A stretch of DNA of 21,335 nt, taken from positions 1 to 21,335 of IMG/VR virus record IMGVR_UViG_3300042559_000050. The stretch is one strand, 5' to 3'. The first letter of the stretch is position 1, and each line of letters starts with the position of its first letter. A model generated the notes under the pieces. That model made no database searches. It was not told where the DNA came from and saw nothing but the letters and a program-made list of their open reading frames with translations. The position numbers and the translations under genes were made by a program. This stretch comes from a virus. Below are positions 2,963 to 18,462 of the stretch, piece by piece.

Positions 2963-2990
2963 AATGTTTTCCTTTGCTGTCTCGCATCTG

Positions 2991-3020: not shown

Positions 3021-3024
3021 GTGT

Positions 3025-3039
3025 GATAATGTATTTATG
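3025..3039 (-). promoter_or_regulatory. Putative late promoter, CATAAATACATTATC
   Basis: The coding strand reads CATAAATACATTATC here, in the gap between two fibre-region genes and overlapping the stop codon of the upstream one. The core ATAAATA matches the T4 late promoter consensus TATAAATA except at its first base. The same extended motif is found at three other gaps in this window. It lies roughly 65-75 nt upstream of the 2962 start. Promoter activity is inferred from recurrence and position only. Confidence 0.45.
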
Positions 3040-4975
3040 TCATCTTGATCCACATAGCACCACCGTTACTTAAAACACCGCCTAAGTTTTTGTATGTGCC
3101 TGTTGGAGTAGATAATCCGTTAGATAAATTGCCATCGCTTGATGTAACAACAATCTTTGGTGTCAATGCTGATGCAACATTAGTGCCGTAGTTAGATAAT
3201 ACTACAAGATTTTCTTTTGAGTTAAATGATACATCACCGCCGCCAGCAAAATTAGCAATAGTAGTATTTGACCATGTGATGCCATCACTTGAAGTAATAA
3301 TAACTCCATTATCAGAATTAGTTGCAATAAAAATACCATTAGCGTACCCAATGGCTTCCCATCTAACATTAGCTAATAAAGTTGTAGTCCATGTGTTACC
3401 ATCATCAGTTGATACTGTTGCCGCACCTCTATTAGTTGATCCGGTAAATTCACTTACACCAACCCATTTACCATTGCCATATACAAATTGACGCCATAAA
3501 TATGGATTAGTTAAAGTTATGTTACTCCAACTGTTACCTAAATCAGTTGATCGTTTAGCAATGTTTGAGCCGCCTATAGGAGTTGATATGAATGTACCAT
3601 TACCATATGCAATATATTCAAATCCAAAAGTACTACTACCAATATTGCTGTTACTCCATGTAAGACCAAAGTCACTTGATTTGATAAAGTTATTACTTAT
3701 ATTTTCACTTCTACTAATAATAATAGTATTGCTACCGTATGCGGCGCCCTTCAAACTAAGAGTAGTGTTTACATTATTGGCATAAGTCCAATTTGCACCG
3801 TTGTTAGTTGAATAAGCACTGTTATTACTACCGGATCTGTAGATAACTAAATTGTTGCCGGCTGATATAACACCAGTAGATATGAAAGGAGTAGCAACTT
3901 TAGCCCACAATGCACCTGTTTGTGTCCTTGCTATATTAGCTTCATAACTTAAAGCTGAAGTCCCTATAGTCCCCCAAATGTAATCAGTAGAAGTAGTCAT
4001 AAATCCGACACCATTACTAATCAATGTGTTTGAAACTGCCCACGAATTATAGTTTAAGTTAGTTGCAATGTTTGCTGTTTGTCCTGCTTGCACTGCTGTG
4101 TTAGCACCATACAATGTACCTATAAAGATATCACCAACTGCTAATGATAATACATTACTCCAGTTACCCCCAACGCCAGGCGCTACCCAAGATAAGTTAC
4201 CATTACCATCTGTCGCCAAGTTATAGTTTGCCGCGCCACCCGTAATCTTAACATTACTCTCGCTACCTAAATTTGCTGTAGTTGATACGTTAAGATTTGC
4301 TATAGTAACATTTGCTAGATTAGAATTACCTGCAACAGATAATGTTCCTGCAGTAGATATATTACCTACAGTAGCGTTAGCAACGACACTTAATCCACCT
4401 GGTATGTTAACAGTGCCGGTTATTTCATTGAACGTAAAGCCTACGTTGCCACCAAATAAGCCGCTATCATTGTATTGAATCTGTGTGTTGGCACCACCTG
4501 GCGAGCCATTACCACCGCCACCTGATTGTGCTGTCCAAGTTAAATTACCTGTGCCATCAGTTTGTAATACATAGCCATTGACGCCACCACCAATAACTAC
4601 ATTGCTTGTTGAATTAGCATTTAAATTAAAAGCGGTACCTGCAAAGTTTGCGTAATTAGAATTAGCAACGCTATTCCAAGAAAGATTGCCAGCGCCATCA
4701 GTAAACAAAGCATAATTTGCTGTTCCACCAGTAATTTTTATATTAGCAACACTACCTAAAGTTAAATTACCATTATCATATGTTGCTGTAGGAATTCCAC
4801 CAAGAACACTACCATTATTATATTGTAGTTCAGTTGTATTGCCACCGGGAATTCCTACTCCTCCACCAAATATTGATAACTGAATATCTGTTGGAGTAAT
4901 AGTTATGTCGTTAGGTTCTACAGTAAAATTAATACTGTTATTACTAACTGTAAAATCTAAATTTATATCAGACAT
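3035..4975 (-). CDS. Tail fibre with Asp-box (BNR-like) repeat domain
   Basis: A 646-residue protein of two halves. Residues 1-270 are a shaft-like part with two PGG..T..QYN..G phrases (about 43-60 and 159-176) and three copies of an ITGG-ANY-L-TDG-GNLSW unit (about 78-100, 126-147, 241-263). Residues about 350-620 carry a series of Asp-box motifs, S-x-D-x-G-x-x-W: 389-396 (Asn in place of Asp), 433-440, 476-483 and 522-529. A shorter form lies at 562-568 and a last degenerate one at 611-618. Spacing is about 39-46 residues, as expected for blades of a beta-propeller. Such domains occur in sialidases and other glycan-binding or glycan-cleaving proteins, which suggests glycan recognition. I do not identify catalytic residues, so enzymatic activity is not claimed. 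The start codon overlaps the stop of the preceding gene as TAATG. Confidence 0.8.
   Translation of the reverse strand: MSDINLDFTVSNNSINFTVEPNDITITPTDIQLSIFGGGVGIPGGNTTELQYNNGSVLGGIPTATYDNGNLTLGSVANIKITGGTANYALFTDGAGNLSWNSVANSNYANFAGTAFNLNANSTSNVVIGGGVNGYVLQTDGTGNLTWTAQSGGGGNGSPGGANTQIQYNDSGLFGGNVGFTFNEITGTVNIPGGLSVVANATVGNISTAGTLSVAGNSNLANVTIANLNVSTTANLGSESNVKITGGAANYNLATDGNGNLSWVAPGVGGNWSNVLSLAVGDIFIGTLYGANTAVQAGQTANIATNLNYNSWAVSNTLISNGVGFMTTSTDYIWGTIGTSALSYEANIARTQTGALWAKVATPFISTGVISAGNNLVIYRSGSNNSAYSTNNGANWTYANNVNTTLSLKGAAYGSNTIIISRSENISNNFIKSSDFGLTWSNSNIGSSTFGFEYIAYGNGTFISTPIGGSNIAKRSTDLGNSWSNITLTNPYLWRQFVYGNGKWVGVSEFTGSTNRGAATVSTDDGNTWTTTLLANVRWEAIGYANGIFIATNSDNGVIITSSDGITWSNTTIANFAGGGDVSFNSKENLVVLSNYGTNVASALTPKIVVTSSDGNLSNGLSTPTGTYKNLGGVLSNGGAMWIKMT
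3272..3811 (-). repeat. Asp-box repeat array in the tail fibre
   Basis: This stretch encodes residues 389-568 of the fibre. It contains five W-ending Asp-box-like motifs: STNNGANW, SSDFGLTW, STDLGNSW, STDDGNTW and SSDGITW. The spacing between their final tryptophans is 44, 43, 46 and 39 residues. Between them are recurring strands ending in YGNG or YANG followed by F/W-I/V, as in beta-propeller blades. Nucleotide similarity between units is low. Confidence 0.75.
4187..4744 (-). repeat. Three copies of an ITGG...TDGxGNLSW module
   Basis: Residues about 78-100, 126-147 and 241-263 of the 646-residue fibre are copies of one unit: an N-I/V-x-I-x-GG turn, an aromatic-containing strand (NYAL, GYVL, NYNL), then TDGxGNL followed by S/T-W. 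They are separated by linkers, one of them Gly/Ser-rich (SGGGGNGSPGG). This suggests duplicated shaft or hinge elements. Confidence 0.65.
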
Positions 4976-5463
4976 TATTGATACCTTACGATCATTCCAA
5001 TTGGTTCACGACTTATATTTTGTTTTGGTGTACTCAATGCATCAGTCCTTGTTACAGTTAATGTAACAATAGCAATATTAGTATTGGCTCCGCTATTTGC
5101 TAATGTAATTGTTGGACCGCCACCTACAGCGCCAGTTAAGTCTGCTGGTATATACAAATAACCTGTACCGGTAGCTGGTGTAGTAAACACTGCTGTCAAA
5201 TTGCCACCTGTGTAGGTGTTGCCACTTAATGATAAGTTACCTACAACAATTTGTGTTGATACAGTAGCATCATACGTAACGTTATCTGCAACATAATATT
5301 TTACGCCAGTGCCCAATGTCCAACTAGTTGTATTGATTGGATCACCAACACTGTCTGTAAACTGAAAAGGAAAAGTATACGCCTCTCCTGTGTATATCTC
5401 TATACATTGCATCTCTGTGCCAGCGATTGTAATCGTCTTTGATCCGTTTAATAATAATGACAT
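4975..5463 (-). CDS. Small baseplate/fibre-attachment-like protein, function unknown
   Basis: A 162-residue, almost all-beta protein without recognisable catalytic motifs. An early stretch (about residues 24-60) with EAYTFPFQFTDSVGDPI resembles the opening strands of BppU-like baseplate sandwich domains, as does part of the 261-residue protein at 2177-2962. The C-terminus ends in REPIGMIVRYQ. The start is supported by AAGGA about 8 nt upstream. Its stop overlaps the start of the Asp-box fibre as TAATG, which suggests coupled translation and a physical partnership with that fibre. The assignment is by context and composition only. Confidence 0.6.
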   Translation of the reverse strand: MSLLLNGSKTITIAGTEMQCIEIYTGEAYTFPFQFTDSVGDPINTTSWTLGTGVKYYVADNVTYDATVSTQIVVGNLSLSGNTYTGGNLTAVFTTPATGTGYLYIPADLTGAVGGGPTITLANSGANTNIAIVTLTVTRTDALSTPKQNISREPIGMIVRYQ

Positions 5464-5483
5464 ATGTCTTTTTCCTTATCTTC

Positions 5484-5490
5484 TATTTAT
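5484..5490 (-). promoter_or_regulatory. ATAAATA motif upstream of the fibre group
   Basis: The coding strand reads AATAAATAGAAGATA, in the 36-nt gap between the gpJ-like gene and the 162-residue gene. It shares the ATAAATA core with four other gaps but not the following CATT. It sits only about 20 nt from the start codon at 5463, so a transcript from here would have a very short leader. This is the weakest member of the motif set. Confidence 0.3.
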
Positions 5491-5499
5491 TGTTTTAAA

Positions 5500-8040
5500 T
5501 TACTTTGATTTCGCTAAACCAAAATCAGCACTAACTAATGTAACATTAGCACTACTTGTTAAGTTACGTATAAAAATTCCACCCCCATTAACAGTGCCTC
5601 CTGTTTTTTGTCCATAACGTAATATTATGTTCGTTGGAAAGCCAGCATTTAATGTATATGTAAATAAACCTGAACTCGTATCACTAATTCCTAAATTAGC
5701 AAAACCAACATCACTTACAGTTACAAAGGGCAATAGTTGAATAACACAATCGGTAGTTGATAAAAACTGACCACTATAATTTGTTTGTAATGTTTCTGTT
5801 GCGCCTACCGTATTTCCAGAGAATGATGCGAATTCTACCGCATACCAATTTAAGTCACCATTTTGCAATACTAACTGTGCTGATAATGCAGGAGTATATG
5901 CCGCAGTGCTATTAGCCGCATAACCTTGTGTAGTCAACGCATTACCTTGTGCGTATGGAAACACTCCGCCTGTGCCTGAATATGTAACATTTATATATTT
6001 TGGCACTGCCCAATTGCCAGTAGGAGCACTATTAACATTACCAAATGTATTAATATTAACAGGCAATATGACTGTATTGCCAGCTTGATTGCTTACTTCA
6101 TATACATAACTAGCTAATTTATTTTGAACAGTTACAGCGGAATTCATATTATTGTAGGTAACACTATTAGCTTGTAAGTTAGCACCCCAATTAAAGATTG
6201 TACTACTAAAACTTGGTCTGCCTGCTAATTCATTTCTAGCTGTTGTGCTGAAGTAATAGTTACCTACTGGCAAATCATTGATATCAATACTTACAGTTTG
6301 TCCATTCGTATATGGTGTTCCGTCTGCAAGTTGTGTACTAGTATAAGATTTATGTGTGGCAACATTATTTGAATTACCATAGTTAAAATCCATGTACAAT
6401 GTTGAACCAGTAGCCGGAACAGTACTTGTTACAGTAAAACTTGTGACAGCACCACTATTTGCAAGTGTGTTTGTTGTTATAACTGGAGTACCAGGTCTAT
6501 CAAATACGTTAGGATCACTCAATCCTGTATTAGCTTCTGGTATAAAATCTTGAATTGCATTGTCGCCATATATCGTTGCGTTATATTCAAACGCTGTAAT
6601 TCTTGCACCCAAGAAGCCATCACTAGTTTTAGTTTCTTGTACTTGTGAAACACGGAACAGTTTGTCTGCCCAACCATACTCAGCAAGTGTAACACGAACT
6701 ACATCACCAGCTTCAACTTGTATACCACTGTAATCTAATTGGCAACTGATAACTAAATCTTCACGACTTTGTAATAGTCTACGCACACCCAAATATACAG
6801 CTTGTATGTAATTGTTTACTTGAGGGAACTGCACAACAATTCTGTTATCTGGTTCGTTAGGACTTAATAATGTAGGGTCATACCATGCAGTACTAGGATC
6901 TGTCAAATCAACAACCTTGTAATTAGTTTGGTCACTGATATTTGCATCTGGGTATTGTACTTCTAAACTGTTGTATGTTTGATTTAAGTCAAGTGGATTA
7001 ATGTCGATGCCACCAATCAATACACTGCTATCAACATGGTAAAGATCACCAGTCGAACCAGTATATGGCTTATTGATAACAACTTTCCATTTACCAGTCA
7101 ACTCACTATACTGTAGCCAACTATCGCATGTATCAATTAATTGTTGTAAATTGTTTAAGCAACTATCACCAGTGTTTACTGGTCCATTAATACGATATCT
7201 TGCTTGTGTAACAGAGCCGCCACCAACAGGCACATATGTAATTGTTTCATCACTGTATACATCCAATGCAGTTAAACTTGCAGTATCAATGTTTGCAACA
7301 TCAATGGCACATCCATATATGGTATCTGTCATGTAATCAAGTAATACTTCACCGGGCTTAGTCAATGTGTTTGTTACTTCTATGCTTAATCTTGGCATGC
7401 CATTTACATCTTGCACATCTTTATTATAGTTAATTTTAACAATAATAAAGCAAGTATTACTCATTACATCTGTGCTTGTCCAACGATCTGCTACTGGAAT
7501 GCCAGCATTTTGTAATATCGTAATAGCACTAGTGCCACCAGTATTGACACCGCTACTACTGCCATTTGTAAATGCATATATGTATGCATTACCATCGATG
7601 GTTGTATCTACTTGCGGTGGTGTTGCATTGTTAGTTAAGCTAACAACTTTATTGTTTGCACTGTAATCACCAGCACCTAATGTAACTTCTTTACCATTCC
7701 AAAATATCTTACCAAAACTCATTGTACCAGTAGTTGCTTCACATAAAGTAAAAACATAATACATTGTCTTTTGATCTGTAGTAATCTTAGCGTCTGTTAC
7801 AGTTGGTGCTAAGAATGCTGAACCATAACTTGGAGCTAGTTTGTTATTAGTTGCAGGGCCTAACTGTACACGTGAGCCAACATCGTTTGCACCTGCGGCT
7901 TTTTTGTTTGCTCTATTAGCAATTAATTTGCTTACGCCAATTGTGACTAAAGTACGTACTGCGAATGCCGCAACACTACTCAATGTTAGACCTGCTATAG
8001 CTGATCCGATATATAACGCCGCCGCTGTGAAAACTGCCAT
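5500..8040 (-). CDS. Tail tip / central fibre protein, gpJ-like
   Basis: An 846-residue protein at the position of lambda gpJ: after the tape measure and minor tail genes, before the fibres. A hydrophobic N-terminus (residues about 1-40) is followed by a beta-rich region, 50-230. A helical and strand segment at about 230-325 includes LLDYMTDTIYGCAIDV, then LIDTCDSWLQYSELTGKW. A baseplate-like segment at about 425-490 has VEAGDVVRVTLAEYGW, then FRVSQVQET. These phrases are characteristic of the gpJ-type phage-tail hub family. Residues about 512-610 look like a fibronectin type III-like domain, and the rest is a Ser/Thr/Asn-rich C-terminal region probably facing the host. The ribosome site AGGAG overlaps the end of the GNAT gene. 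The hydrophobic N-terminus may be a tail-lumen or membrane-contact segment (inference). Confidence 0.8.
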   Translation of the reverse strand: MAVFTAAALYIGSAIAGLTLSSVAAFAVRTLVTIGVSKLIANRANKKAAGANDVGSRVQLGPATNNKLAPSYGSAFLAPTVTDAKITTDQKTMYYVFTLCEATTGTMSFGKIFWNGKEVTLGAGDYSANNKVVSLTNNATPPQVDTTIDGNAYIYAFTNGSSSGVNTGGTSAITILQNAGIPVADRWTSTDVMSNTCFIIVKINYNKDVQDVNGMPRLSIEVTNTLTKPGEVLLDYMTDTIYGCAIDVANIDTASLTALDVYSDETITYVPVGGGSVTQARYRINGPVNTGDSCLNNLQQLIDTCDSWLQYSELTGKWKVVINKPYTGSTGDLYHVDSSVLIGGIDINPLDLNQTYNSLEVQYPDANISDQTNYKVVDLTDPSTAWYDPTLLSPNEPDNRIVVQFPQVNNYIQAVYLGVRRLLQSREDLVISCQLDYSGIQVEAGDVVRVTLAEYGWADKLFRVSQVQETKTSDGFLGARITAFEYNATIYGDNAIQDFIPEANTGLSDPNVFDRPGTPVITTNTLANSGAVTSFTVTSTVPATGSTLYMDFNYGNSNNVATHKSYTSTQLADGTPYTNGQTVSIDINDLPVGNYYFSTTARNELAGRPSFSSTIFNWGANLQANSVTYNNMNSAVTVQNKLASYVYEVSNQAGNTVILPVNINTFGNVNSAPTGNWAVPKYINVTYSGTGGVFPYAQGNALTTQGYAANSTAAYTPALSAQLVLQNGDLNWYAVEFASFSGNTVGATETLQTNYSGQFLSTTDCVIQLLPFVTVSDVGFANLGISDTSSGLFTYTLNAGFPTNIILRYGQKTGGTVNGGGIFIRNLTSSANVTLVSADFGLAKSK

Positions 8041-8041
8041 A

Positions 8042-8497
8042 TTATACTCCTAGTACCCAAGTTTCTTCAAACTTTTTAAATCCAAATCTTGTATAGTCAA
8101 TGTTAACAAGATTCTCTGTATTGGTCATTGTTGCTGACATAATTTCTTTATCCTCTACCATCTGTTTTATTTGTTTACTGAATTCTTTTACTAACATATA
8201 ACCTGCTCTAGTATTTCTATAGTCAGGTTCTACCCATAACATTAATTCTTGCATGACAAATTGTTCTGGATCCCAAATGTTTCTATTCTTTAATCCAACA
8301 ATCATGCCCACTGTTTTATCAGACTCGGCAATCAATATTAATCCACCACCAAGAATGATATGATGAAATAACTTGTTGATGTATTCCCAATTGTTAGCAT
8401 TACGAATACTCATAGGTAAGTCAGTAGACTCTTGGAAATGCTTGACCATTTCTAAGAAGTCTGGTAGATCAAATTTATTTGCTATTCTTACGTTCAT
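8042..8497 (-). CDS. GNAT-family N-acetyltransferase in the tail module
   Basis: A 151-residue protein with the order of elements of the GNAT fold. An N-terminal VRIANKFDLPDFLEMV strand and helix comes first. A central strand, GGLILIAESDKTVGMIVG (about 51-68), follows. Motif A lies at about 84-106, where ELMLWVEPDYRNTRAGYMLV carries the acetyl-CoA pyrophosphate-binding loop (R94-x-x-R-A-G99). The C-terminal part has YTRFGFKKFEETWV. The expected enzyme transfers an acetyl group from acetyl-CoA to an amine. The target is unknown: it could be a virion protein or a host protein. It is wedged between a minor tail gene and the tail tip gene with gaps of 1-3 nt, so it is surely co-expressed with the tail. 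GNAT genes within structural modules are known from other phages, and their role is unclear. Confidence 0.8.
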   Translation of the reverse strand: MNVRIANKFDLPDFLEMVKHFQESTDLPMSIRNANNWEYINKLFHHIILGGGLILIAESDKTVGMIVGLKNRNIWDPEQFVMQELMLWVEPDYRNTRAGYMLVKEFSKQIKQMVEDKEIMSATMTNTENLVNIDYTRFGFKKFEETWVLGV

Positions 8498-8500
8498 TTG

Positions 8501-9178
8501 TTAAGGACTCGCATCTGTAACGTTTGTATTTGTATCTTGTGCCACTTGCCCTGCATCTGTTGCAGCCTGACTTTGTGTTGTTGCGCCTTGCTTTGGTGCT
8601 TGACCAAAGTCGAATTGCTTATCTGCAATACTTGGAACACGATCCATACTAGTGTCAGTTGGGTTATATTCTTTCCAACTCTCGCTGTTTGTTTTTCTAC
8701 CTGCGATACGATTCTCTAATACACTCTTAAAACTACTTGCGTTTAGTGTGATTGTAAAATTGTCATCATTGTCTTGTCGTTCTTCACTGATGTTATAACT
8801 TGTGACAATACCTGTAAAACGCTGTGCAACATTGCTTAATATATAGTTATTGTTATAGAATCCGCGTGTAAGTTCTATTTTACTACCACGAATCTTATTG
8901 CCCAATACGATAGCCATGTTATTGCCACTGACACCACTTAAGCTTATGCTTGTATCAGCACTGGTAACACGAATGTCTCGTTGTTGTATACCTACAGCTA
9001 ATAATCCACCTAGTGGTGTATATGTTTGACCATCAATTGTTTCAGATTGGTAACTACTGCTGAACGTGTACACATTGTTATTTGCTGTGTTAGCATATTC
9101 ATTGTAAATTGTTAATTTAACAAACTCAGCATTGTTTACCAATGATTTATTATTTGCTACTGCTGGGATATTTTCCAT
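8501..9178 (-). CDS. Minor tail protein
   Basis: A 225-residue protein whose layout fits siphovirus minor tail proteins found between tape measure and tip. An N-terminal strand pair ends in YTPLGGLLAVG (about residues 53-63). A middle part, SISLSGVSGNN then GSKIELTRGF and FTGIVTSYNISEE, follows. The C-terminal RIAGRKT...YNPTDTSMDRVP segment resembles the conserved end of that family. The last 30 residues are a low-complexity Gln/Ala/Thr tail. It has the ribosome site AAGGAATAA. It probably contributes to the distal tail hub. The family is recognised by pattern, not by an exact match. Confidence 0.65.
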   Translation of the reverse strand: MENIPAVANNKSLVNNAEFVKLTIYNEYANTANNNVYTFSSSYQSETIDGQTYTPLGGLLAVGIQQRDIRVTSADTSISLSGVSGNNMAIVLGNKIRGSKIELTRGFYNNNYILSNVAQRFTGIVTSYNISEERQDNDDNFTITLNASSFKSVLENRIAGRKTNSESWKEYNPTDTSMDRVPSIADKQFDFGQAPKQGATTQSQAATDAGQVAQDTNTNVTDASP

Positions 9179-9188
9179 AATTTATTCC

Positions 9189-9887: not shown

Positions 9888-9895
9888 ATATTTCC

Positions 9896-12181
9896 TTATC
9901 TACCGTAACTCAATTCTTTTTGTGCCATTTGTACTGACCCAAATAATGTTTTGCGATTTTCTGCAAACAATTGGGCTACTGATTTGGCATCAACTGCTGA
10001 TATGTTATTTGTAATGTATGTGTTGCCACCTGCCCCACTAGTTCCACCACCACTACCACCATTAGGTACAATAGTGCCTGCTGTTTTTGGTACGAACAAC
10101 TCAGGACCCTTCTCACCAACAATACTTGGCTTGTTGATTGGGGGCTGTCCACCTTCAGCAAAACCTAATAATGAACTAAAGAATCCACTAGCACCAGATA
10201 TCACACCGCTCAATATTTTACTTGCTTGTGCTTTTAATTCAATCTTAATTAAATCTTGAATAACACTACGAGCAAAGTCACCAAAACTAAACTTACCAGT
10301 ATTAACAAAGTTATCAATGGCACTGTTCATATTAGTAGTGAATGAACTAAATGCATCACCGGCTACTTTGGCAGCATTGGTTGAATTTTCTATGTAACTA
10401 TCAAAGGCTGACTTCCAACCCTCTTCCCATGTACGACTTTGCGATAAGTTTGCTGATTGTACATTAGCAATAGCTTGGTATCGTTGAGCAATCAATGCAA
10501 GACCATCTGCTAACTTTTTAGCATCTTCTGCACCCATATCTTCAGAACTAAATTGTTCGCTGAATGCACGACTTGCTTCTAGTGCGGCTTTACGGGCATT
10601 CTCTTGTATGCTTGCAAACTGTTTCTCTAATGGTGAACGTTTCATCTGAGCACCCTCAAACTCTGCTTCACCTAATTGACCTTGTGTTTGCTGACGAATC
10701 TGTAACAATGATTGGTCGTAATTAATTTGTTTTTGTAGTGCTTGATTGATACGCTCAATGTTGTTTAATCTATCTTGTTCTAATAGTTTTAACCCATGCA
10801 ATCCTTGCATTGCGCCAGTAACACGCTGAACATCAATTGCGGTTTGTTCTTGTATCTTTTTAATTTGGGCATCATAGACGTCAGTAAGTCCTTTTTCGTC
10901 TTTACCTAATGCATTTTTTGCTGTTCTTAACTTTTCTGCTTCATCAGCACCACGTTTGTATATTTCTTCTTGTGCTTTAAGAATATCAGCTTCTTCTTGG
11001 CTCTTCCCAACAAGCATCTTTTCAACGTTGATGTTATCAATCAATTGTGCATTTTGAGCCTTAAATGCGCTAGTAATGTTTTCAATCTCAATACGCTTCT
11101 TTTCTAACGCATCTGTAACTTCACGACTAACATCTGCTTCTGGACTAGATTTGCCACCTGTTGTTGCTTCTGGTGTTTTAGCATCGCTAGATCCACCTAA
11201 TCCCATTACACCTGCTATACCACCTGCAATAGTACCAATCAATGCGCCAACAGCACGTAATGCTGTCATCAATTTACCATTTGCGGCGAAACTAATTGCG
11301 GCTTTCTCTGCACCAGCTACAGCAGTTGATCCAAATGAACTAAAATATTTGCCCACTTGACTAACTGCAGGACCAAGAGCCGCAAATCCTCTAGCAAACA
11401 TACCAAAGAAACGAACGATTGCCATTGCAATGCCACCACCGAATACAGCAAGCAATACAGTACCTAATACTTTTAATATGGTAACTAATGTGTCAATGTT
11501 CTTTCCACCATCAGTAATCTTGTTAATCATCTCAACTAACGGAGCTGTAACTTGCAAGAATGCAATTTTGATATCCATTAATGACTTAGCCATCTTGTCG
11601 TTTAATGCGGCTGCTTCTTTAATCGACTGCCCATACTTGTCACCAGATCCTGCGGCATCATTAAGCTTCTGTGCCATGTCACGTGGATCAACTGTCTTAA
11701 AGCTTTTACCAAAGATTTCCATCTTTAATCCGGCTTCACGGCTCTTATCAGTTATTCTGTCAAAACCTTCTAATGCCCTAGTCAATAAGTCAGCTTCACT
11801 TAATGTACGTAAATCTTCTAATGTAACACCTAATTGAGCAAAAGCACTTTGTGTTTTTAAACTACCCTGTGCGGCTTCATCAATATTCTGTGTGAACTTA
11901 ACAATGCCACTAGCCATTTGATCTGCTTGACCACCGGCGGCTACTAATGCATCTTGGTATTCAATTAGTTTACCGATAGCAATACCAGTAGCACTTGATA
12001 AGTCATTCAAATCATCAGCCATTGTAATTGCTGAACGACTGAAGGCTGCAAAACCTACAGCGGCTAGTTTGCTTTTTAATCCACTAAACTTTGTACCAAT
12101 AGTATTAAGTTTCTTATCTAGTGAATCTAATGCACCTAAGCCATTTACTTCTACATTAACTTTTGCTGTTGCTGTTGCCAT
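9896..12181 (-). CDS. Tape measure protein
   Basis: A 761-residue protein, the longest of the mid-tail genes. It spans the tail lumen during assembly and sets tail length. Residues 1-220 are helical and Ala-rich. Hydrophobic stretches at about 231-270 and 304-328 could be the membrane-active segments typical of tape measures. A long charged helical and coiled-coil region covers about 350-600. The C-terminus carries the familiar tape-measure phrase GEKGPELFVP at 689-698, preceded by an AEGG turn and followed by a Gly-rich linker. It follows the chaperone genes, as expected, with AAGGAAAAT upstream and the double stop TAATAA of the preceding gene just before its ATG. At 761 residues it predicts a medium-length tail, about 110 nm using the usual 1.5 angstrom per residue rule. 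Confidence 0.93.
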   Translation of the reverse strand: MATATAKVNVEVNGLGALDSLDKKLNTIGTKFSGLKSKLAAVGFAAFSRSAITMADDLNDLSSATGIAIGKLIEYQDALVAAGGQADQMASGIVKFTQNIDEAAQGSLKTQSAFAQLGVTLEDLRTLSEADLLTRALEGFDRITDKSREAGLKMEIFGKSFKTVDPRDMAQKLNDAAGSGDKYGQSIKEAAALNDKMAKSLMDIKIAFLQVTAPLVEMINKITDGGKNIDTLVTILKVLGTVLLAVFGGGIAMAIVRFFGMFARGFAALGPAVSQVGKYFSSFGSTAVAGAEKAAISFAANGKLMTALRAVGALIGTIAGGIAGVMGLGGSSDAKTPEATTGGKSSPEADVSREVTDALEKKRIEIENITSAFKAQNAQLIDNINVEKMLVGKSQEEADILKAQEEIYKRGADEAEKLRTAKNALGKDEKGLTDVYDAQIKKIQEQTAIDVQRVTGAMQGLHGLKLLEQDRLNNIERINQALQKQINYDQSLLQIRQQTQGQLGEAEFEGAQMKRSPLEKQFASIQENARKAALEASRAFSEQFSSEDMGAEDAKKLADGLALIAQRYQAIANVQSANLSQSRTWEEGWKSAFDSYIENSTNAAKVAGDAFSSFTTNMNSAIDNFVNTGKFSFGDFARSVIQDLIKIELKAQASKILSGVISGASGFFSSLLGFAEGGQPPINKPSIVGEKGPELFVPKTAGTIVPNGGSGGGTSGAGGNTYITNNISAVDAKSVAQLFAENRKTLFGSVQMAQKELSYGR

Positions 12182-12184
12182 TTA

Positions 12185-12505
12185 TTATTTTCCTTGCACA
12201 ATCTTATTCACACGCTGTTGAATGAAATCTTCTGTTGGTTTAGTCATACCTTCTGGAGCTTGGTCACTACCACGCATGCCTCTACTTGTCATATGACGAC
12301 CTTTATCTAACACTTCGGCATATTGATAATTTGCTTCAATAGTCTTGCCCTTTAATTTAGTATTACGTCTAGCGTTACCACTTTTGATAGGAGTTTGTTT
12401 AACAAAAAATTGGTAGGCTTCTTTAGGAATGTTGTTCAATTCTTTTTTCATCTTTGACAACATCTGACTCACATCACCTTTAAAGGATGCATCTAAATTA
12501 ACCAT
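12185..12505 (-). CDS. HK97 gp10-like head-tail / tail completion protein
   Basis: A 106-residue basic protein with the pattern of the HK97 gp10 family: an N-terminal helix, then TPIKSGNARRNT, a strand, YQYAEVLDKGRH, and a C-terminal PEGMTKP-helix. Members act as neck or tail-completion proteins that join the tail to the head. The start at 12505 has AAGGAAA upstream and overlaps the end of the T-domain frame by 8 nt. The family is usually encoded before the tail tube gene. Here it lies between the chaperones and the tape measure, which is an unusual position. Confidence 0.75.
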   Translation of the reverse strand: MVNLDASFKGDVSQMLSKMKKELNNIPKEAYQFFVKQTPIKSGNARRNTKLKGKTIEANYQYAEVLDKGRHMTSRGMRGSDQAPEGMTKPTEDFIQQRVNKIVQGK

Positions 12506-12728
12506 TGTTCATTTCCTTATTCTTTTTAAGCATATCCATTAACTCATCTTGTGTATAGTCTGGTATCGGCTCACGACCATTGTTCATTGACTTCTTATGA
12601 TGATAATTCTCAAAAGTAAGTGCCGCATCCATAATATACAAATCAAATGTGTTTGCTCTACCTATCACTTCACTGGGTAACATTCCATAACGCTTACCTA
12701 GTGTATCTATCCACAATATTGATGCCAT
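12498..12728 (-). CDS. Tail assembly chaperone T domain (expressed as G-T fusion)
   Basis: A 76-codon frame reading MASILWIDTLGKRYG, then DLYIMDAALTFEN and a charged C-terminus. The pattern is that of the second part of siphovirus tail assembly chaperones. Its own ATG at 12728 has no good ribosome site (GTGAAAAG immediately before it), and the ATG would lie in the loop of a predicted hairpin. The frame is open upstream through codons VTNDNIDINSEK to the slippery site at 12764-12770. A -1 shift there joins it to G and gives a protein of 186 residues (98 + 12 + 76). I infer that this is the main product, as for lambda gpG-T, which chaperones the tape measure while tube protein assembles around it. 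Confidence 0.75.
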   Translation of the reverse strand: MASILWIDTLGKRYGMLPSEVIGRANTFDLYIMDAALTFENYHHKKSMNNGREPIPDYTQDELMDMLKKNKEMNNG

Positions 12729-12753
12729 CTTTTCACTGTTGATATCAATATTG
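12714..12753 (-). other. Perfect 10-bp inverted repeat downstream of the frameshift site
   Basis: On the coding strand CAATATTGAT (12753-12744) and ATCAATATTG (12723-12714) are exact reverse complements with a 20-nt loop that holds the T-frame ATG. The stem begins 10 nt after the slippery heptamer. Downstream structure can stimulate -1 frameshifting. This stem is AU-rich and the spacer is slightly longer than the usual 5-9 nt, so its contribution is uncertain. It could alternatively hide the T start codon and so prevent independent initiation. Confidence 0.55.
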
Positions 12754-12760
12754 TCATTTG

Positions 12761-13057
12761 TTACTTTCCCAAGAGTTCTGTCACCTTACCAATCACCTTC
12801 ATTAAAACATGTGTTGGCAACATTTGGTCACCAGCTAATATCTGTTTACCTTTCTCATCTAAAATGAGTGTGCGAACAATCTCTACGATTGATGCTGTGT
12901 TACCATGGTCAGCGTTAGCTAACTTCATAAATGTTTCCATAGGTTGACGATCCCATGTCCAGAATTCGATTGCTTCACCAAATTCTTTAATAGTTTCTTC
13001 ATCATCAAGATGAATGTCAATCAATTGGGGTTTTGCTGTGAGGGATGATAATTTCAT
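12761..13057 (-). CDS. Tail assembly chaperone G
   Basis: A 98-residue acidic protein between the tail tube and tape measure genes, where lambda-like phages encode gpG. It reads LIDIHLDDEETIKEFGEAIEFWTW near the N-terminus (in two parts), with a helical C-terminal half ending KVIGKVTELLGK. The start at 13057 has a strong AAGGAAAT site. The last codons TTG GGA AAG TAA contain the slippery heptamer G GGA AAG directly before the stop, so a fraction of ribosomes should shift to the -1 frame and continue into the T domain. G alone and G-T together bind the tape measure during tail assembly in lambda (established). Sequence similarity to lambda gpG is not visible by eye, so the call rests on position, size and the frameshift arrangement. 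Confidence 0.8.
   Translation of the reverse strand: MKLSSLTAKPQLIDIHLDDEETIKEFGEAIEFWTWDRQPMETFMKLANADHGNTASIVEIVRTLILDEKGKQILAGDQMLPTHVLMKVIGKVTELLGK
12764..12770 (-). other. Programmed -1 ribosomal frameshift site GGGAAAG
   Basis: In the zero frame of gene G the codons are TTG GGA AAG TAA, so the heptamer fits X XXY YYZ. It is the same heptamer used in the lambda G-T frameshift. After a -1 slip the frame reads GTA ACA AAT and on without a stop into the T domain. The -1 frame has a stop (TAA) upstream at 12788-12786 and the zero frame stops at 12763-12761. Only about 22 nt are therefore available for a shift, and the canonical heptamer lies exactly there. Confidence 0.88.
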
Positions 13058-13082
13058 TTGTTATTTCCTTTTTAAATTATTA

Positions 13083-13094
13083 CATTGTATTTAT
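13083..13094 (-). promoter_or_regulatory. Putative late promoter upstream of the tail chaperone gene, ATAAATACAATG
   Basis: The coding strand reads AATAAATACAATGTAA, spanning the stop codon of the 62-residue gene and the gap before gene G. It shares ATAAATACA with three other gaps. It lies about 26-37 nt upstream of the G start, with the ribosome site AAGGAAAT between. It would restore transcription after the terminator at 13294-13324. Activity is inferred. Confidence 0.45.
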
Positions 13095-13279
13095 TCATTA
13101 TCAATTTCATCTTCTAGTAATTGATTTAGTAATGCTAGACGAAATGCTTGTTTTGCTTTTAACTGCTTAATTGTTGCTTGCATCGTATCAAGCATAGGCA
13201 TTGCCTTAGCCTCATCTGCAATTAAACTTCTTAGTTTATCTTCTTTGCTATGCAACCATACTGAATGTTCTTCGTTCAT
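13091..13279 (-). CDS. Small helical protein of unknown function
   Basis: A 62-residue protein reading MNEEHSVWLHSKEDKLRSL and then mostly charged helix, ending acidic (LEDEIDNE). The start at 13279 has AAGGAAAAC and the ACAAATG start context shared with other genes here. It lies between the terminator after the tail tube gene and the chaperone gene, so its transcription depends on terminator read-through unless a promoter is hidden nearby. I do not recognise a family. Position suggests a tail assembly accessory factor, but nothing in the sequence proves it. Confidence 0.65.
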   Translation of the reverse strand: MNEEHSVWLHSKEDKLRSLIADEAKAMPMLDTMQATIKQLKAKQAFRLALLNQLLEDEIDNE

Positions 13280-13293
13280 TTGTTTTCCTTATT

Positions 13294-13324
13294 AAAAAAG
13301 GGAATACCTTTTATAGTATTCCCT
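13294..13324 (-). terminator. Intrinsic terminator after the tail tube gene
   Basis: The coding strand reads GGGAATAC, the 8-nt loop TATAAAAG, then GTATTCCC followed by TTTTTT. The stem is a perfect 8 bp (13316-13323 with 13300-13307), extended to 9 by an A-T pair. The U tract (13294-13299) abuts the stem. It begins 23 nt after the tail tube stop codon. It is the only clear rho-independent terminator I found in the window. It should end or reduce messages carrying the abundant capsid and tube genes before the low-copy tail genes. Confidence 0.88.
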
Positions 13325-13346
13325 AGTTTTCCCATCTCATACGAGA

Positions 13347-13841
13347 TTAAGGGTTTTTCTCTGTTGTCATTGATCCATCAACTGCCAATGTCATGGGTGT
13401 GATCCAGACAGGTGCATCAGGACTTGCTGTTGGTGCTAGTGAAGAAATAAATCCTTGACCAGCATAGTAGTAAGCATTGGCAGTAGCATTGCCACCGTTC
13501 ATTACAAGTTTAAATTGCAATGGAACTTTATCAATACTTAATTGCGAAATGCCCAAGTTCGCTGCCGAACCTGATCCACCTACTCCAAAGAATACATCAT
13601 CTTCAATAACCATGTTAACAGAAATCTCATTGTCTGCAGGAGTTGTCAACTTATTCATGTCACCAGAACAAAAGTCTGTATATGAATAAATGCCAGTACT
13701 GTTAGTGATGGTAATGTCTTGCAAACAAGTCACTGATAGTGTGTTTGCAATGTTGCCCCAGTTAGCAGTGTTGCTAATTAGGTCAGTACTCACCAATAGT
13801 GTTGGTTGAGTGCCTGCTGTGTTTACGGTAATTCTTGCCAT
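13347..13841 (-). CDS. Probable major tail tube protein
   Basis: A 164-residue beta-rich protein starting MARITVNTAGTQPTLLVS. It has alternating strands with Asn, Thr, Gly and Ser and a C-terminal segment ending AVDGSMTTEKNP. Size, fold impression and position (after the connector genes, before chaperones and tape measure) match siphovirus tail tube proteins. It has the strongest ribosome site in the window (AAGGAG) and is followed by an intrinsic terminator. Both fit a highly expressed product. I cannot exclude a different abundant structural protein, such as a head decoration protein, but the neighbours favour the tube. Confidence 0.7.
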   Translation of the reverse strand: MARITVNTAGTQPTLLVSTDLISNTANWGNIANTLSVTCLQDITITNSTGIYSYTDFCSGDMNKLTTPADNEISVNMVIEDDVFFGVGGSGSAANLGISQLSIDKVPLQFKLVMNGGNATANAYYYAGQGFISSLAPTASPDAPVWITPMTLAVDGSMTTEKNP

Positions 13842-13847
13842 TATAGT

Positions 13848-13853
13848 CTCCTT
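13848..13853 (-). promoter_or_regulatory. Strong ribosome binding site AAGGAG of the tail tube gene
   Basis: AAGGAG sits 6 nt before the ATG at 13841. Most other genes here use AAGGAAA-type sites. The near-full complement to 16S rRNA fits high translation of a major structural protein and fixes the start. Confidence 0.75.
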
Positions 13854-13863
13854 GTGTTTGGCG

Positions 13864-14316
13864 TTATGTATTAAATTCTAATCTTGTTAAACTGAATGTC
13901 CAAGTATGTTTTTCTGCTTGAGTGGGTCCGAATGTACGAACTTGATCGAAGTCTCTTTCAAAGTAACCATCCATTAATTGCTGACCATCAGTTTTGATAG
14001 CAGTAACTAAATTTGCAATAATAGCATTGATTGCTGTATTGTATGGATCGTCTTGGTAGCTAATGTATGTGACATTGAATTCATCAACTGCATGATAAAT
14101 TGCACCACAATATTGTATACCCAATTGATGAGGATTTCTACTAACTGTATGCACATCACTCACATAGACACCATAACGAACAACTTCACTATCACTAGGG
14201 AAGTCACTGTATATTGGTATATTCCATGCTTTAGGTATATCACGTTTCAACACGGCACTGATTTGTGTTTCAGTTACTGTTGGTTCGTTCAATACTGAGT
14301 AAGTTACTTCAGCCAT
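13864..14316 (-). CDS. Probable tail terminator / tail completion protein
   Basis: A 150-residue protein reading MAEVTYSVLNEPTVTETQ, a central part with YGVYVSDVHTVSRNPHQLG and VDEFNVTYISYQDDPY, a helix (NTAINAIIANLVTAI) and a last strand pair (TWTFSLTRLEF). The mixed alpha/beta layout, with a long helix followed by strands, and its place just before the tail tube gene fit tail terminator (gpU-like) proteins. Assignment is by size and context. The start overlaps the preceding stop as TAATG, with AGGAGATA upstream. Confidence 0.55.
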   Translation of the reverse strand: MAEVTYSVLNEPTVTETQISAVLKRDIPKAWNIPIYSDFPSDSEVVRYGVYVSDVHTVSRNPHQLGIQYCGAIYHAVDEFNVTYISYQDDPYNTAINAIIANLVTAIKTDGQQLMDGYFERDFDQVRTFGPTQAEKHTWTFSLTRLEFNT

Positions 14317-14843
14317 TAGAAATATCTCCTATCTCCGTTGAAATAATCAACGTCTGCTGTCCAATTTTCTTCAAGCTTTGTAGTTGGTCCTTGTGGACTA
14401 TCCATGTATAAATCATAGAAGTTCATAAGTTGCAACGCTTTAGTCCATTCGTTATCACAACGTTTCTGTGCAAACTCGTAGTTTTGCAAATCAACCTCGT
14501 TCATGTTAGACACATCGGTTACTAGTGATTCATAGAATACTAATATTGCACCGAACGTATCTAAACGAATTAGTGTCTGATCGTTTTTAATGAGCAGACT
14601 TGGATTAAAACTTGAAATCAATTGTCCATTAGGCAGATTAGCATAATAGTAAGCACCCAACACTGTGTCGCAGTATTTCTGCCACCATCCGAACTCTAAC
14701 TTGTAAAGCCACTCTTGTGAAGCAACTTTAAAGTATGGAGCCCAATCAACTTGTAGTGCAGCCGCTCTACGTTCCGCTGCCGGATCGTAGAACTGTATAT
14801 CTGCTACAGTTGCGTTTGAGATTCGTTGATATGGTACTGACAT
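14316..14843 (-). CDS. Probable head-tail connector (adaptor) protein
   Basis: A 175-residue, aromatic-rich and largely helical protein directly after the major capsid gene. It contains APYFKVASQEWLYKLEFGWW and, near the end, QLMNFYDLYMDSPQGP. It shows no enzymatic motif. Genes at this place in siphoviruses encode adaptor proteins that bind under the portal. The following gene is co-translated through a TAATG overlap, which supports a shared connector role. The family is not recognised with confidence. Confidence 0.5.
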   Translation of the reverse strand: MSVPYQRISNATVADIQFYDPAAERRAAALQVDWAPYFKVASQEWLYKLEFGWWQKYCDTVLGAYYYANLPNGQLISSFNPSLLIKNDQTLIRLDTFGAILVFYESLVTDVSNMNEVDLQNYEFAQKRCDNEWTKALQLMNFYDLYMDSPQGPTTKLEENWTADVDYFNGDRRYF

Positions 14844-14871
14844 ATTATATTATTCCTAGACTTAATTCAAA

Positions 14872-15900
14872 TTAGGCTTGAATGATGTTAATAGCTCCGC
14901 CTCTACGTAAGTCACCAACGCCAGATCCAAAATATCCAACTCCGGTTAACCAAATCTGCAATCCGCCTGGTGTTTCACCAGTCTTAAGTTGCAAGCCTTC
15001 TTTCATAACAGTGAACAAAGCACTGTCACCGAAATAAGCACCGACTAATACAGGATATACGCCGCTACCTTCACTTACGATAACACGTGAAGCACTCTGT
15101 AAGAAAGTAGTTGCCATTACCATACAACCGTAGATGTTTTCAATTCTACCTGTAGATAACAATTCGTTACCTAATGCAGATAGATTAGAACCACCAGATT
15201 GACTTACTGCACCACCAGTTAACTCACTTAGCAAACGATTCAAACTAGAACCGATTACGCCGTCATCACCATTAGAATCAATAACGATCATTGGGTTACC
15301 AGGCATACGAGCAACTTTAAAGTTTTGCTTAATGTTACGAATCATTTCAGTAACAGTCGTTGCTGTGAAGCCTGTTACAGCAGAACTAGCAGTTCCGCCT
15401 GATGGTAGTAATTCCATAGCGCCTAATTGCAAGACACGATCAAATCCGTCTGCACTTGTTGCGTAGTATGTATTGCTTGGTGTTGCTTTGAAGCTTAAGA
15501 AAGCATTCGTAACACGTTGGTCAACCTTTTCAGCGAATGACTCACCTAGTTCAGCACCAAGCGTTGCAGCCAATGTGAAACTTGTGGTCCATCCGTAGAA
15601 GATGTCAAATGCTGTTGTTGCAACTGCTGGAGTTGCTGTGATTGAAGCTTGCTCTAATGATGGGTTTTGCACGTTAGCATTACCAGTGCCCCAAGTTCCT
15701 GCAGTAGAGTTAGCATTGTAATCAGCATAAGTGATTGGTGCGAAATTAGGAACTAAGAATGTTTGACCTTGTGTAGGTGTAACAACATTTGTAAAGTTAA
15801 CTAAACCGTTTGATTCGTGCATAGCACGTAATGCGAAATTGCTGATAGCTGTTGTGAAGCCATCGCCTTCGTTATTTGGACCGCCGAGAACATAAGCCAT
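14872..15900 (-). CDS. Major capsid protein
   Basis: A 342-residue protein following the scaffold gene, the standard place of the capsid gene. The N-terminus (MAYVLGGPNNEGDGFTTAIS) is followed by helices and strands consistent with an HK97-like fold. A helix at about residues 108-130 (ATLGAELGESFAEKVDQRV) resembles the spine helix. Later segments include PMIVIDSNGDDG and GAYFGDSALFTVMKEGLQL, then PGGLQIWLTGVGYFGSGV. The latter resembles the last strands of the P domain. It has AAAGGAAAAA before the start. No protease gene or delta-domain-like cleavage site is obvious nearby, so maturation by cleavage is not evident. Confidence 0.85.
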   Translation of the reverse strand: MAYVLGGPNNEGDGFTTAISNFALRAMHESNGLVNFTNVVTPTQGQTFLVPNFAPITYADYNANSTAGTWGTGNANVQNPSLEQASITATPAVATTAFDIFYGWTTSFTLAATLGAELGESFAEKVDQRVTNAFLSFKATPSNTYYATSADGFDRVLQLGAMELLPSGGTASSAVTGFTATTVTEMIRNIKQNFKVARMPGNPMIVIDSNGDDGVIGSSLNRLLSELTGGAVSQSGGSNLSALGNELLSTGRIENIYGCMVMATTFLQSASRVIVSEGSGVYPVLVGAYFGDSALFTVMKEGLQLKTGETPGGLQIWLTGVGYFGSGVGDLRRGGAINIIQA

Positions 15901-15930
15901 AATATTTTTCCTTTATATATAAGTTGGCAA

Positions 15931-16710
15931 TCAGAGTATTTTACGACTTGAACTAGATACACTTGCTGATACGCCTAGACCTTTTAGTCCGACACCTTTA
16001 CCTAGTCCATTCTTGTTAGCCCACGCATTGAATGCGGCAGGATCACGTGAATAGTCTGGTATAGATTCTTCTAGTGCACCAGTAAAACTACCTTGTCCAG
16101 GTCTTAAACCAGATCCAGAATTAGTGTTACTCTGTCTTAATAGCTTTGGATTACCCACTGCTACTTCATTTACTAATCCTGAAATTGTAAGTGGCATTCC
16201 ATCACTACCATAGCGTTCTTGACCCTTCTGATTAACAATAGCATATGTGCCATCATCGTTCCACTGAATATTGTTTTTAACTTTATTCAATGCGTAATCA
16301 AGTAAGTCACTGTCAAACTTGTCACCCATAGCTCTTTGAATGTCACTATCTAATTCCTTCTCACGCAATCTTTGCTCTTTTACTGCTAGATCGTTTTGAA
16401 GTTTACTAAACTGCTCATGCAAATCGTTTGTAGTGACACGTCCATTAGAACTCTGTTGAGCTTTTGGTTGTCCACTTGGCTGTACGTTGCCAGCGTTATT
16501 GTTTTGAGCCCCTACACGTGCCATATATGATAATGCATCTTCAACAGATTGGAATTGTGTTCCGCTTGCGTTTGATAATGCAGTCAACAATGACTGAGTT
16601 GTGCTTTTACGAATAGCACCCGGGTTAACGTTTTGCTCTCCTGCTTCACTCATAGAGTCCTGTGCAGTTACAGGGGCTACATCGTTGCCAACGAAATTTT
16701 GATTGTCCAT
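15931..16710 (-). CDS. Probable capsid scaffolding protein
   Basis: A 259-residue hydrophilic protein rich in Gln, Asn and Ser, with no Cys or Trp-rich core. Residues about 95-130 (LHEQFSKLQNDLAVKEQRL and on) form a probable coiled coil, the usual core of scaffolds. The C-terminus is basic (GLKGLG...SSSSRKIL), as in scaffolds that bind the capsid shell. It lies between portal and capsid genes, which is the typical scaffold place. I see no serine protease motif, so a fused protease is not supported. An ATAAATACATT motif lies about 40-50 nt upstream of its start. Confidence 0.75.
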   Translation of the reverse strand: MDNQNFVGNDVAPVTAQDSMSEAGEQNVNPGAIRKSTTQSLLTALSNASGTQFQSVEDALSYMARVGAQNNNAGNVQPSGQPKAQQSSNGRVTTNDLHEQFSKLQNDLAVKEQRLREKELDSDIQRAMGDKFDSDLLDYALNKVKNNIQWNDDGTYAIVNQKGQERYGSDGMPLTISGLVNEVAVGNPKLLRQSNTNSGSGLRPGQGSFTGALEESIPDYSRDPAAFNAWANKNGLGKGVGLKGLGVSASVSSSSRKIL

Positions 16711-16750
16711 TTAATTTTTTCCTTTAACTTTACGTAGTTAGCGATTGTGT

Positions 16751-16762
16751 AATGTATTTATG
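16751..16762 (-). promoter_or_regulatory. Putative late promoter before the scaffold-capsid genes, CATAAATACATT
   Basis: The coding strand reads CATAAATACATTACAC in the 73-nt gap between portal and scaffold genes. It matches the motif at 3025-3039 over 13 bases (CATAAATACATTA). It would drive scaffold and capsid expression at higher levels than the packaging genes upstream. Activity is inferred from recurrence and position. Confidence 0.5.
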
Positions 16763-16783
16763 CATTTTCATTTAAGATGAATT

Positions 16784-18409
16784 TTAGCGTCCCGTATTCA
16801 TACCTGTAAGTATAATTGGAGCAACTTGCTCTGTGTAGTATGTTACACCTATGTTAGTAACTGGAGTGCCGGCACCACCTAAGATACTACTGTTGTCTGA
16901 TTCACCAACTTCGTTATCGTATTCAGCTTCTTCTTTACCAGATTCTTCTTCTTCACCATACTGTTCGTGAGTTGGTATCATTGAAGGTTCTAAATCTCTG
17001 CTGAGGACTTCGTTGTTTTGATCAGCCATTAATGTTCGTAAATCAGGATCTGCGATAGTTTGAATGTATGCATCTTCATACTCTGGTATTGCTGTATCTG
17101 GAGCAAGCATACCAATAATCTCTTTTGTGATTAGTGCTTGAATCATTGGGTTATCACCAACAAGATTCTTAGCTGATGTAATCAATGCCATACGATAGTT
17201 TGTATCGTGTGCTTCATAGTCTGTGTTATAGTTTACTTCACCTGCCCAACGAACGTTCATAAAACGTGCGGCAAATGTATAAATCATTTCTTCTGTGACT
17301 TCCATCAATCTAGCTTTACTTTTAGCTAAACGATGTAATTGCTTGCGTTCTTCAATGATAGCAACGCCTGATGCAATTTGGTTCTTACTATTCCTTAGTC
17401 CACCTAACCCCGTAAGTGCTTCAATCTGTTCAAGGATATCTTGTTGTGCTTTAATAATCACATCAACATCTCCGGTGTCAATGGGAATAGCTTCTACTTG
17501 CCCCTCATTTGCTCTCACGATAGCTCCCGCGTGAACAGGAATACTAATGCCTTTGTCTGCACGAATCAATGTATGTGCAAACTGTAATGCTGTATATTTC
17601 TCGCACTCTAGTTTATAGAACTCACGCATTGCATCACTGGCTGCGTCAATATCACTAATGCCTAGATCCATTGTTCTTGGGTCTCTGCGACCATATGCAA
17701 TGAATATTGGAAGACTCATACCTGCTGGATATGTGCCAGTGCCAATTAATTCAGCAGGCTCATTCATTTCGCTAGGACCTTTTTTAACTTCATAGCTTTC
17801 CCAGTATGATGGGGTGTTAGCATCGCCCAAGTGATAGCACTTGATGTAGTAACAATCTATTTCTTCCATCTCTTTTACTTTAACATACTTAAGCATTGGG
17901 CGACCACCATAGTAATCAAACTCCCAATCCCATACGTCTAATGGATTTATACTGCAAACGTAAGGTCTACCTAAACTACCTTGACCTGCTTGTGGCATAT
18001 CTACTGCTACCCAGCAATGTCCAAAGATACTTGTTAAGTCGCCTACGTTTTCCATAAACGCATTCATACTGCGATTAGTTAAGTCAGAATCTAGTAATAA
18101 TAAGTCTGCCCATTCAGTGTTCTTTGGTTCAATGCGTGTGCCAGTTGGTGTGCAAAATTGCATATTACGTTTGACACCTGGCTCAAACAATACATCATTG
18201 ATTGTGTCAACGATGTAACGACAGATTGGCTGTGCGATTGTGTTAGCTACTAGGTCTTGATACAATGTTGAATCTTCACTAGGTCTTTTTTTACGCACAT
18301 ACATCTTGAAAGGTAGTCCTCCAAGATACGCATATTGATATGCCAACATCTCATTGTAGATGTTATCGTAAATAGGATTACGCTTTAATAAGTCTGCTTT
18401 GTTTTTCAT
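16784..18409 (-). CDS. Portal protein
   Basis: A 541-residue protein between the packaging and capsid genes. It forms the dodecameric channel at the head vertex and binds the terminase. Residues about 50-80 (DLVANTIAQPICRYIVDTIND) and 114-138 (MNAFMENVGDLTSIFGHCWV, AVD) give the wing core. GRPYVCSINPLDVWDWEFDY (148-167) and LPIFIAYGRRDP (233-244) follow. The helix-rich 250-385 segment, including LTGLGGLRNSKNQIASGVAI, covers the stem and crown. The order resembles portals of the DUF4055 type. Residues 483-506 are a very acidic tail (EEEESGKEEAEYDNE). The ribosome site is weak. Confidence 0.85.
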   Translation of the reverse strand: MKNKADLLKRNPIYDNIYNEMLAYQYAYLGGLPFKMYVRKKRPSEDSTLYQDLVANTIAQPICRYIVDTINDVLFEPGVKRNMQFCTPTGTRIEPKNTEWADLLLLDSDLTNRSMNAFMENVGDLTSIFGHCWVAVDMPQAGQGSLGRPYVCSINPLDVWDWEFDYYGGRPMLKYVKVKEMEEIDCYYIKCYHLGDANTPSYWESYEVKKGPSEMNEPAELIGTGTYPAGMSLPIFIAYGRRDPRTMDLGISDIDAASDAMREFYKLECEKYTALQFAHTLIRADKGISIPVHAGAIVRANEGQVEAIPIDTGDVDVIIKAQQDILEQIEALTGLGGLRNSKNQIASGVAIIEERKQLHRLAKSKARLMEVTEEMIYTFAARFMNVRWAGEVNYNTDYEAHDTNYRMALITSAKNLVGDNPMIQALITKEIIGMLAPDTAIPEYEDAYIQTIADPDLRTLMADQNNEVLSRDLEPSMIPTHEQYGEEEESGKEEAEYDNEVGESDNSSILGGAGTPVTNIGVTYYTEQVAPIILTGMNTGR

Positions 18410-18441
18410 ATTTTTATATTTCTCACATAAATAGGCATTTA

Positions 18442-18462
18442 GTAGATAATGTATTTATCTAC
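18442..18462 (-). promoter_or_regulatory. Putative late promoter embedded in a hairpin before the portal gene
   Basis: The coding strand reads GTAGATAA ATACA TTATCTAC: 8-bp perfect arms with a 5-nt loop. The promoter-like core ATAAATACATTATC lies within this palindrome. It overlaps the stop codon of the HNH gene (18461-18459) and is about 40 nt upstream of the portal start. The dyad could be an operator over a promoter or an RNA hairpin at the end of the HNH message. No U tract follows, so it is not a standard terminator. Confidence 0.45.

Follow-up and report, generated by a model that had tools for sequence, protein, structure and literature searches.

A lineage of small (approximately 30 to 36 kb) siphovirus-like lake phages appears to use the sequence ATAAATA-CATTAt as a late promoter. 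We regard this sequence as a real element and, judging from comparisons of related genomes, put the probability that it belongs to the T4 class of late promoters at roughly three in four. We infer that it functions at the DNA level, as a promoter, and that its reader is a gp55-type sigma factor. RNA polymerase carrying such a factor would recognize a -10-like element together with its A/T-rich extension, with no need of a -35 box, and this recognition would fire the structural operons. Host sigma70-type promoters lie before early genes in several relatives and could provide the other half of an early/late switch. If this reading is right, a promoter class considered specific to gp55-bearing phages serves the late operons of a widespread lineage of small phages with no recognizable gp55. 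A few small conserved proteins would then include a late factor of a new kind, or else the promoter would be a mimic that exploits the transcription program of large phages.

The ATAAATA element in the window and in its relatives

The window, meaning the whole stretch of DNA that was analyzed, is an entire IMG/VR record of 21.3 kb and is clearly a genome fragment, so the genome-wide question about the motif was asked of relatives. Five copies of ATAAATA lie on the strand that codes for the whole gene block, the minus strand, at the positions reported in a first-pass annotation (3032-3038, 5484-5490, 13088-13094, 16755-16761 and 18452-18458). That annotation had also described the copies as confined to gaps or reaching into them across a stop codon, the gaps as a few percent of the window, and four of the copies as sharing an extension, and each of these descriptions was borne out. 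Three of the five copies are entirely within gaps, two (3032-3038 and 13088-13094) straddle the preceding stop codon and none falls within a coding-strand gene, while gaps account for 499 of the 21,335 bases (2.3%). Four of the five copies read ATAAATACA[TA]T.

The elements and genes in this paragraph are all on the minus strand. A ATAAATACATTA-type element at 18448-18458, found in the same place in relatives, stands upstream of the portal gene (16784-18409, phrog_145), and a second one at 16751-16761, conserved in relatives, stands upstream of the gene for the head scaffolding protein (15931-16710, phrog_206). The ATAAATACAAT element at 13084-13094, also conserved in relatives, runs across a stop codon ahead of a 98-aa gene of the tail region (12761-13057). 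Upstream of a 162-aa tail-region gene (4975-5463, a weak match to phrog_1084), the copy at 5484-5490 has the extension GAAG and not CATTA, and its counterparts are in relatives G001, G002 and G007. The ATAAATACATT element at 3028-3038 again crosses a stop codon, precedes a 261-aa gene (2177-2962) that is conserved in relatives, and has counterparts in G001, G002 and G005. The distances from motif to next gene start for the five copies are 49, 51, 37, 27 and 76 nt, and AAGGA-type ribosome-binding sequences occur separately from the element. The major capsid and terminase genes (large terminase at 18898-20334, phrog_2) have no exact copy directly upstream, and the block also holds an HNH endonuclease gene (18459-18935, phrog_1872) and a tail tape-measure gene (9896-12181, phrog_24). 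A possible variant with one mismatch, ACAAATACATT, lies at 21301-21311, near the start of a small terminase-like gene at the contig end (20937-21314, assigned by position, with no family match).

Two further features of the window were noted. The portal motif lies within an inverted repeat, GTAGATAA-ATACA-TTATCTAC (18443-18463), that is absent from most relatives. An acetyltransferase-like gene (8042-8497) lies within the tail-tip block, as it is in relatives and in the distant phage DSL-LC06.

Statistics from the window alone give a modest gap bias, and it is the relatives that decide the matter. The non-coding strand holds two more copies, one inside a gene (3496) and one in a gap (18427), so that seven were observed on both strands where dinucleotide shuffles predict 10. 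Synonymous-codon shuffles predict 2.3 coding copies (probability of none, 0.075), and gap shuffles predict 1.4 gap or straddling copies (probability of five or more, approximately 0.01). The last value, along with an A content of 47% in the window gaps, is what would be cited for attributing the clustering of this A/T-rich word to chance, in gaps that are themselves rich in A and T, but the relatives refute that explanation and we consider its probability negligible. These relatives were the best 80 contigs listed by a scan with the portal protein, at 77 to 100% identity. The count of coding against non-coding occurrences that had been proposed as a check came out clearly on the side of a gap element: on the coding strand there were 180 copies in 37 kb of gaps versus 34 in coding sequence totaling 693 kb, an enrichment of approximately 92-fold. 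Heptamers of the same composition were enriched in gaps only 1.4- to 18-fold, with the exception of the overlapping word AATAAAT (36-fold), and the opposite strand of the gaps held 11 copies, giving a strand bias of 180 to 11.

The element is conserved in position. The same gaps (those before the portal, scaffold and 98-aa genes) hold the motif across relatives despite differing flanking sequences. Most late operons of the lineage are marked by it, on the same strand as the structural genes, and in complete relatives it precedes late operons on either strand where gene direction reverses. The enrichment was not found in the marine portal relative HTVC111P (7 copies in gaps versus 27). As a separate observation, G045 (record L418/L419) has overlapping opposite-strand copies at 366 and 373, within GTATTTATATAAATAC, an arrangement resembling a two-way promoter.

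Shape of the element and the promoter reading

To describe the element, 59 independent sites were collected whose flanks are less than 50% identical, with the ATAAATA core fixed by choice. Information at these sites is limited to the core and to positions +7 to +12 (C-A-T-T-A-t). No -35 signal was detected, with at most 0.23 bits anywhere from -50 to -3, and the distance from element to gene start ranges from 8 to 151 nt (median 42). Late promoters of T4 have the sequence TATAAATA and are served by gp55, gp33 and gp45. The element described here is like them in its single -10-like ATAAATA core, its A/T-rich downstream sequence, its lack of a -35 box and its place ahead of structural genes. It is unlike them in that conservation does not extend to the leading T of TATAAATA (present at 19 of the 59 sites), that the CATTA extension is strong and that the genomes are siphovirus-like, approximately 30 to 36 kb long and devoid of a recognizable gp55.

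Since there is no -35 signal, the flanks share nothing and the spacing varies from 8 to 151 nt, the anatomy is that of a T4 late promoter and fits neither a sigma70 promoter nor a ribosome-binding element. Ordinary sigma70 -10 boxes were rejected as a description, as the sites have neither TATAAT nor a -35 box. An RNA-level signal in the leader, such as a processing site or a translation element, would also be strand-specific and upstream of genes, as this element is. We consider it quite unlikely, because the variable distance to the start and the lack of common flank sequence do not fit such a role, separate AAGGA-type sequences exist for ribosome binding and the core is identical to a known late promoter core. 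A late promoter, in contrast, is supported by one conserved element without a -35 box, on the coding strand, before structural genes and at variable distance from their starts. The first-pass interpretation is supported in its first part, a T4-like late promoter, and unsupported in its second, a late sigma factor encoded by the phage itself.

Two other groups of phages carry a comparable core. The jumbo phage CBB has an ATAAATA late consensus, which is also predicted in GAP32, and CBB encodes a gp55-like sigma factor, with gp33 and gp45 not detected there (PMC5259590). These two phages, and the T4-like contigs G017 and G018 described below, share with our element the core without a fixed leading T, and in G017 and G018 the extension is also near CATTA; they differ in having their own gp55 and large genomes, and their capsid genes were unrelated in the comparisons made. 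DSL-LC06, from Dishui Lake (proposed Nanhuiviridae, PMC10611076), is a distant relative with a circular genome of approximately 30 kb, head and tail genes in a similar order, no gp55, and ATAAATA mostly in gaps (6 versus 2). Its portal protein is 25% identical, and other bases follow the core in place of the CATTA extension.

Candidate sources of the late sigma factor

The first-pass annotation had expected the phage to carry its own gp55-type sigma gene elsewhere in the genome. No gp55 was detectable in complete or nearly complete relatives of 30 to 36 kb. Terminal direct overlaps of 126 to 145 bp at 99 to 100% identity in G003, G004 and G005, and an exact one of 25 bp in G044, indicate that these four are probably complete circles of about 30.4 to 35.5 kb. 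Judging from gene order, G042 and G043 are nearly complete, and the longest portal-bearing contig among the best 80 listed per scan is no longer than 36.2 kb. The gp55 family model phrog_234, with E values of up to 1 admitted, gave no match in a set of 17 records that contained the window, nor in G042 to G045 or DSL-LC06, and a five-sequence gp55 profile found nothing in 12 relatives or in DSL-LC06. The same profile detects G017 and G018 at approximately 1e-60, both being members of the profile or nearly identical to one; as an independent control, phrog_234 detects their gp55 at 5e-22 and 8e-23. Sigma70 region 2 had no match in complete or nearly complete relatives, and region 4 gave only sub-threshold fragments within the frame that encodes the tape-measure protein in G001 and G007. 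The model to rely on is phrog_234, because the gp55 of G017 goes undetected with region 2 too. As for the gp33- and gp45-like genes named as further targets, the Pfam and PHROG matches listed (25 of the 29 PHROG families) for 92 small proteins encoded by three complete genomes include no sigma, clamp or co-activator family. At the level of recognizable homology no late sigma gene was found with these sequence models.

Because none of the lineage's genomes has a recognizable sigma gene, the factor would be either hidden and unrecognized or borrowed from another virus or the host. Our confidence in each source is a matter of judgment, and the three sources divide the promoter reading and its neighbors among them in a way that is not exact. 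The first is a late sigma factor or activator of the virus itself, diverged past recognition. The best candidates are two families of small proteins encoded just ahead of the small terminase gene, family A (84 to 120 aa, IEYTYKL...) and family B (118 to 134 aa, LIDKPF..HIKNFDKM...). Their recurrence in all complete or nearly complete relatives examined speaks for them, as does the combination of sigma70-type early promoters with a special late element, a program normally accompanied by a phage factor. Against them, alignment of both families to the gp55 profile with hhalign gave probabilities of 0.1 to 0.15%, low-confidence AlphaFold models led to no usable match in the PDB, and a position beside terminase would equally fit a role in packaging. 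We hold this source tentatively, at somewhat below even odds.

In the second, gp55 would come from a co-infecting jumbo T4-like phage, and the small virus would be a satellite with a copy of that phage's late promoter. Scanning for the pattern brought up two freshwater contigs, G017 (264 kb) and G018 (49 kb), with T4-like capsid genes and gp55; the capsid protein of G017 is 62 to 66% identical to its counterparts in jumbo phages, GAP32 and PA5oct among them. While the ATAAATA core is common to T4, S-CRM01, HTVC008M, G017 and G018, the bases around it differ among T4-like phages, with a leading T favored in T4, GT...ATG following the core in HTVC008M, and an A in S-CRM01. Among the phages tested, the extension was closest to that of the relatives in G017 and G018 (relative entropy 3.2 and 2.4 bits), followed by jumbo relatives at large (5.2), T4 (6.0), G025 (6.5) and HTVC008M (15 bits). 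These two values call for caution: both contigs were chosen through one motif copy, G018 offers only seven sites, and across the wider jumbo group the extension after the core is weak.

Gene content bears on the same question. Both G017 and G018 have tail-fiber and HNH-type genes in common with these viruses, and G017 also Dps. Of 97 loci from freshwater jumbo T4-like phages, 59 had at least one protein in common with these viruses, versus 12 of 99 control contigs, a comparison that is uneven because the jumbo loci are centered on capsid genes. The proteins concerned are mostly tail-fiber repeat domains; they suggest overlapping hosts and nothing beyond that, and are a sign of gene exchange and not of dependence. 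The lack of a recognized gp55, DNA polymerase or endolysin in complete relatives would also suit a satellite, although small autonomous phages do without a DNA polymerase as well. The relatives have exchangeable replication genes and their own host-type early promoters, which argues against a helper. We regard a helper phage as possible but doubtful. A comparison of shared metagenomes (nine sample ids with jumbo phages versus two with controls) was discarded, as the lists were copied by hand and the lake habitat is a confounder. G017 was also seen to carry a permuted tmRNA gene (L231, 1488-1860), whose tag ANDELFALAA may be a clue to the host of this phage.

Under the helper reading, the lineage might be a bacterial counterpart of the virophages, with its own tailed particle, a copied promoter and late genes timed by the gp55 of a co-infecting jumbo T4-like phage; this we offer still more tentatively. 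Virophages of giant viruses have their own capsid and a late promoter matching that of the large virus, but they are eukaryotic and unrelated viruses, and the parallel is valid only if the small phages are satellites. There is precedent for satellites with their own capsid genes in Mulch and Flayer, for which helper dependence has been reported (PMC10690885), and the satellite reading, if true, would be new in its mechanism. Mulch and Flayer are likewise small and tailed, and they encode their own encapsidation but have few replication genes; they infect Streptomyces, and their reported dependence contrasts with one that is only possible for the present, uncultured viruses.

The third source, a host sigma factor or one from a resident prophage, would agree with the failure to find a factor in the virus. 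We consider it unlikely, since the motif is not a sigma70 promoter and, to our knowledge, fits no common host sigma factor. A search for the host via prophages returned one distant match, in a MAG contig.

Gene content, early promoters and leader structures

The non-structural genes of the relatives include an HNH nuclease, small proteins of no known family and, in several, a Dps-like protein. The replication position holds a swappable set, with PrimPol and DUF3987 in G002, DUF5906 in G001, and elsewhere uncharacterized proteins of approximately 517 to 614 aa or 235 to 269 aa. The Pfam and PHROG searches of the same 92 small proteins (25 of the 29 PHROG families listed) recognized no DNA polymerase and no endolysin; two of the 92 matched an Rz-like spanin family. 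Members of the 517- to 614-aa family (G005 2230-4050, in L089; G001 32394-34226, in L082; G004 22691-24415, in L087; L333 4119-5672) show motifs that look polymerase-like by eye (YGR.YYKGINIQN, YDLN, VHDSF), with no supported relative. A T7-like RNA polymerase was rejected as the reader of the motif, as the 574- to 614-aa candidate had no match in Pfam, in a PDB profile search or in hhalign against T7 RNA polymerase. A candidate for a single-subunit RNA polymerase gene occurs in only some of the genomes, and G002, G003, G008 and G043, which do not have the 574- to 614-aa protein, still carry the motif.

Sigma70-type promoters (scores 11 to 14) precede leftward genes in G001, G002, G004 and G005. 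Overall, such matches are not much more numerous than in shuffles in most genomes, so the weight is on their placement and mutual similarity. Near-identical copies, TTGAC[AG].TAAATC....TGTGCTATAAT, lie ahead of leftward genes, repeatedly within a single genome. With the portal gene on the plus strand, the sites are on the minus strand at 200, 557, 816, 33765 and 34350 in G002, 31462 in G001, 1962 in G005 and 22303 in G004. A palindrome like TTAGAGTCTAGACTCTAA, possibly an operator, lies between divergent early units at approximately 31950-31975 in G001 and 1300-1320 in G002 (same orientation).

An Rfam scan of the leader RNA gave nothing above threshold. A structure resembling an H-type pseudoknot recurs in the leader of the gene at the replication position; in it, the loop of a GC-rich hairpin is able to base-pair with sequence 4 to 8 nt downstream. 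Its arms are lineage-specific but complementary, and since they were found by demanding complementarity, any count of covariation is biased. With the portal gene on the plus strand, it was seen at G001 32313, G003 27103, G004 22438, G005 2153, G008 4806 and G044 24929, and also at L003 3751, L017 1194, L032 3734, L047 1085, L048 1470 and L067 134.
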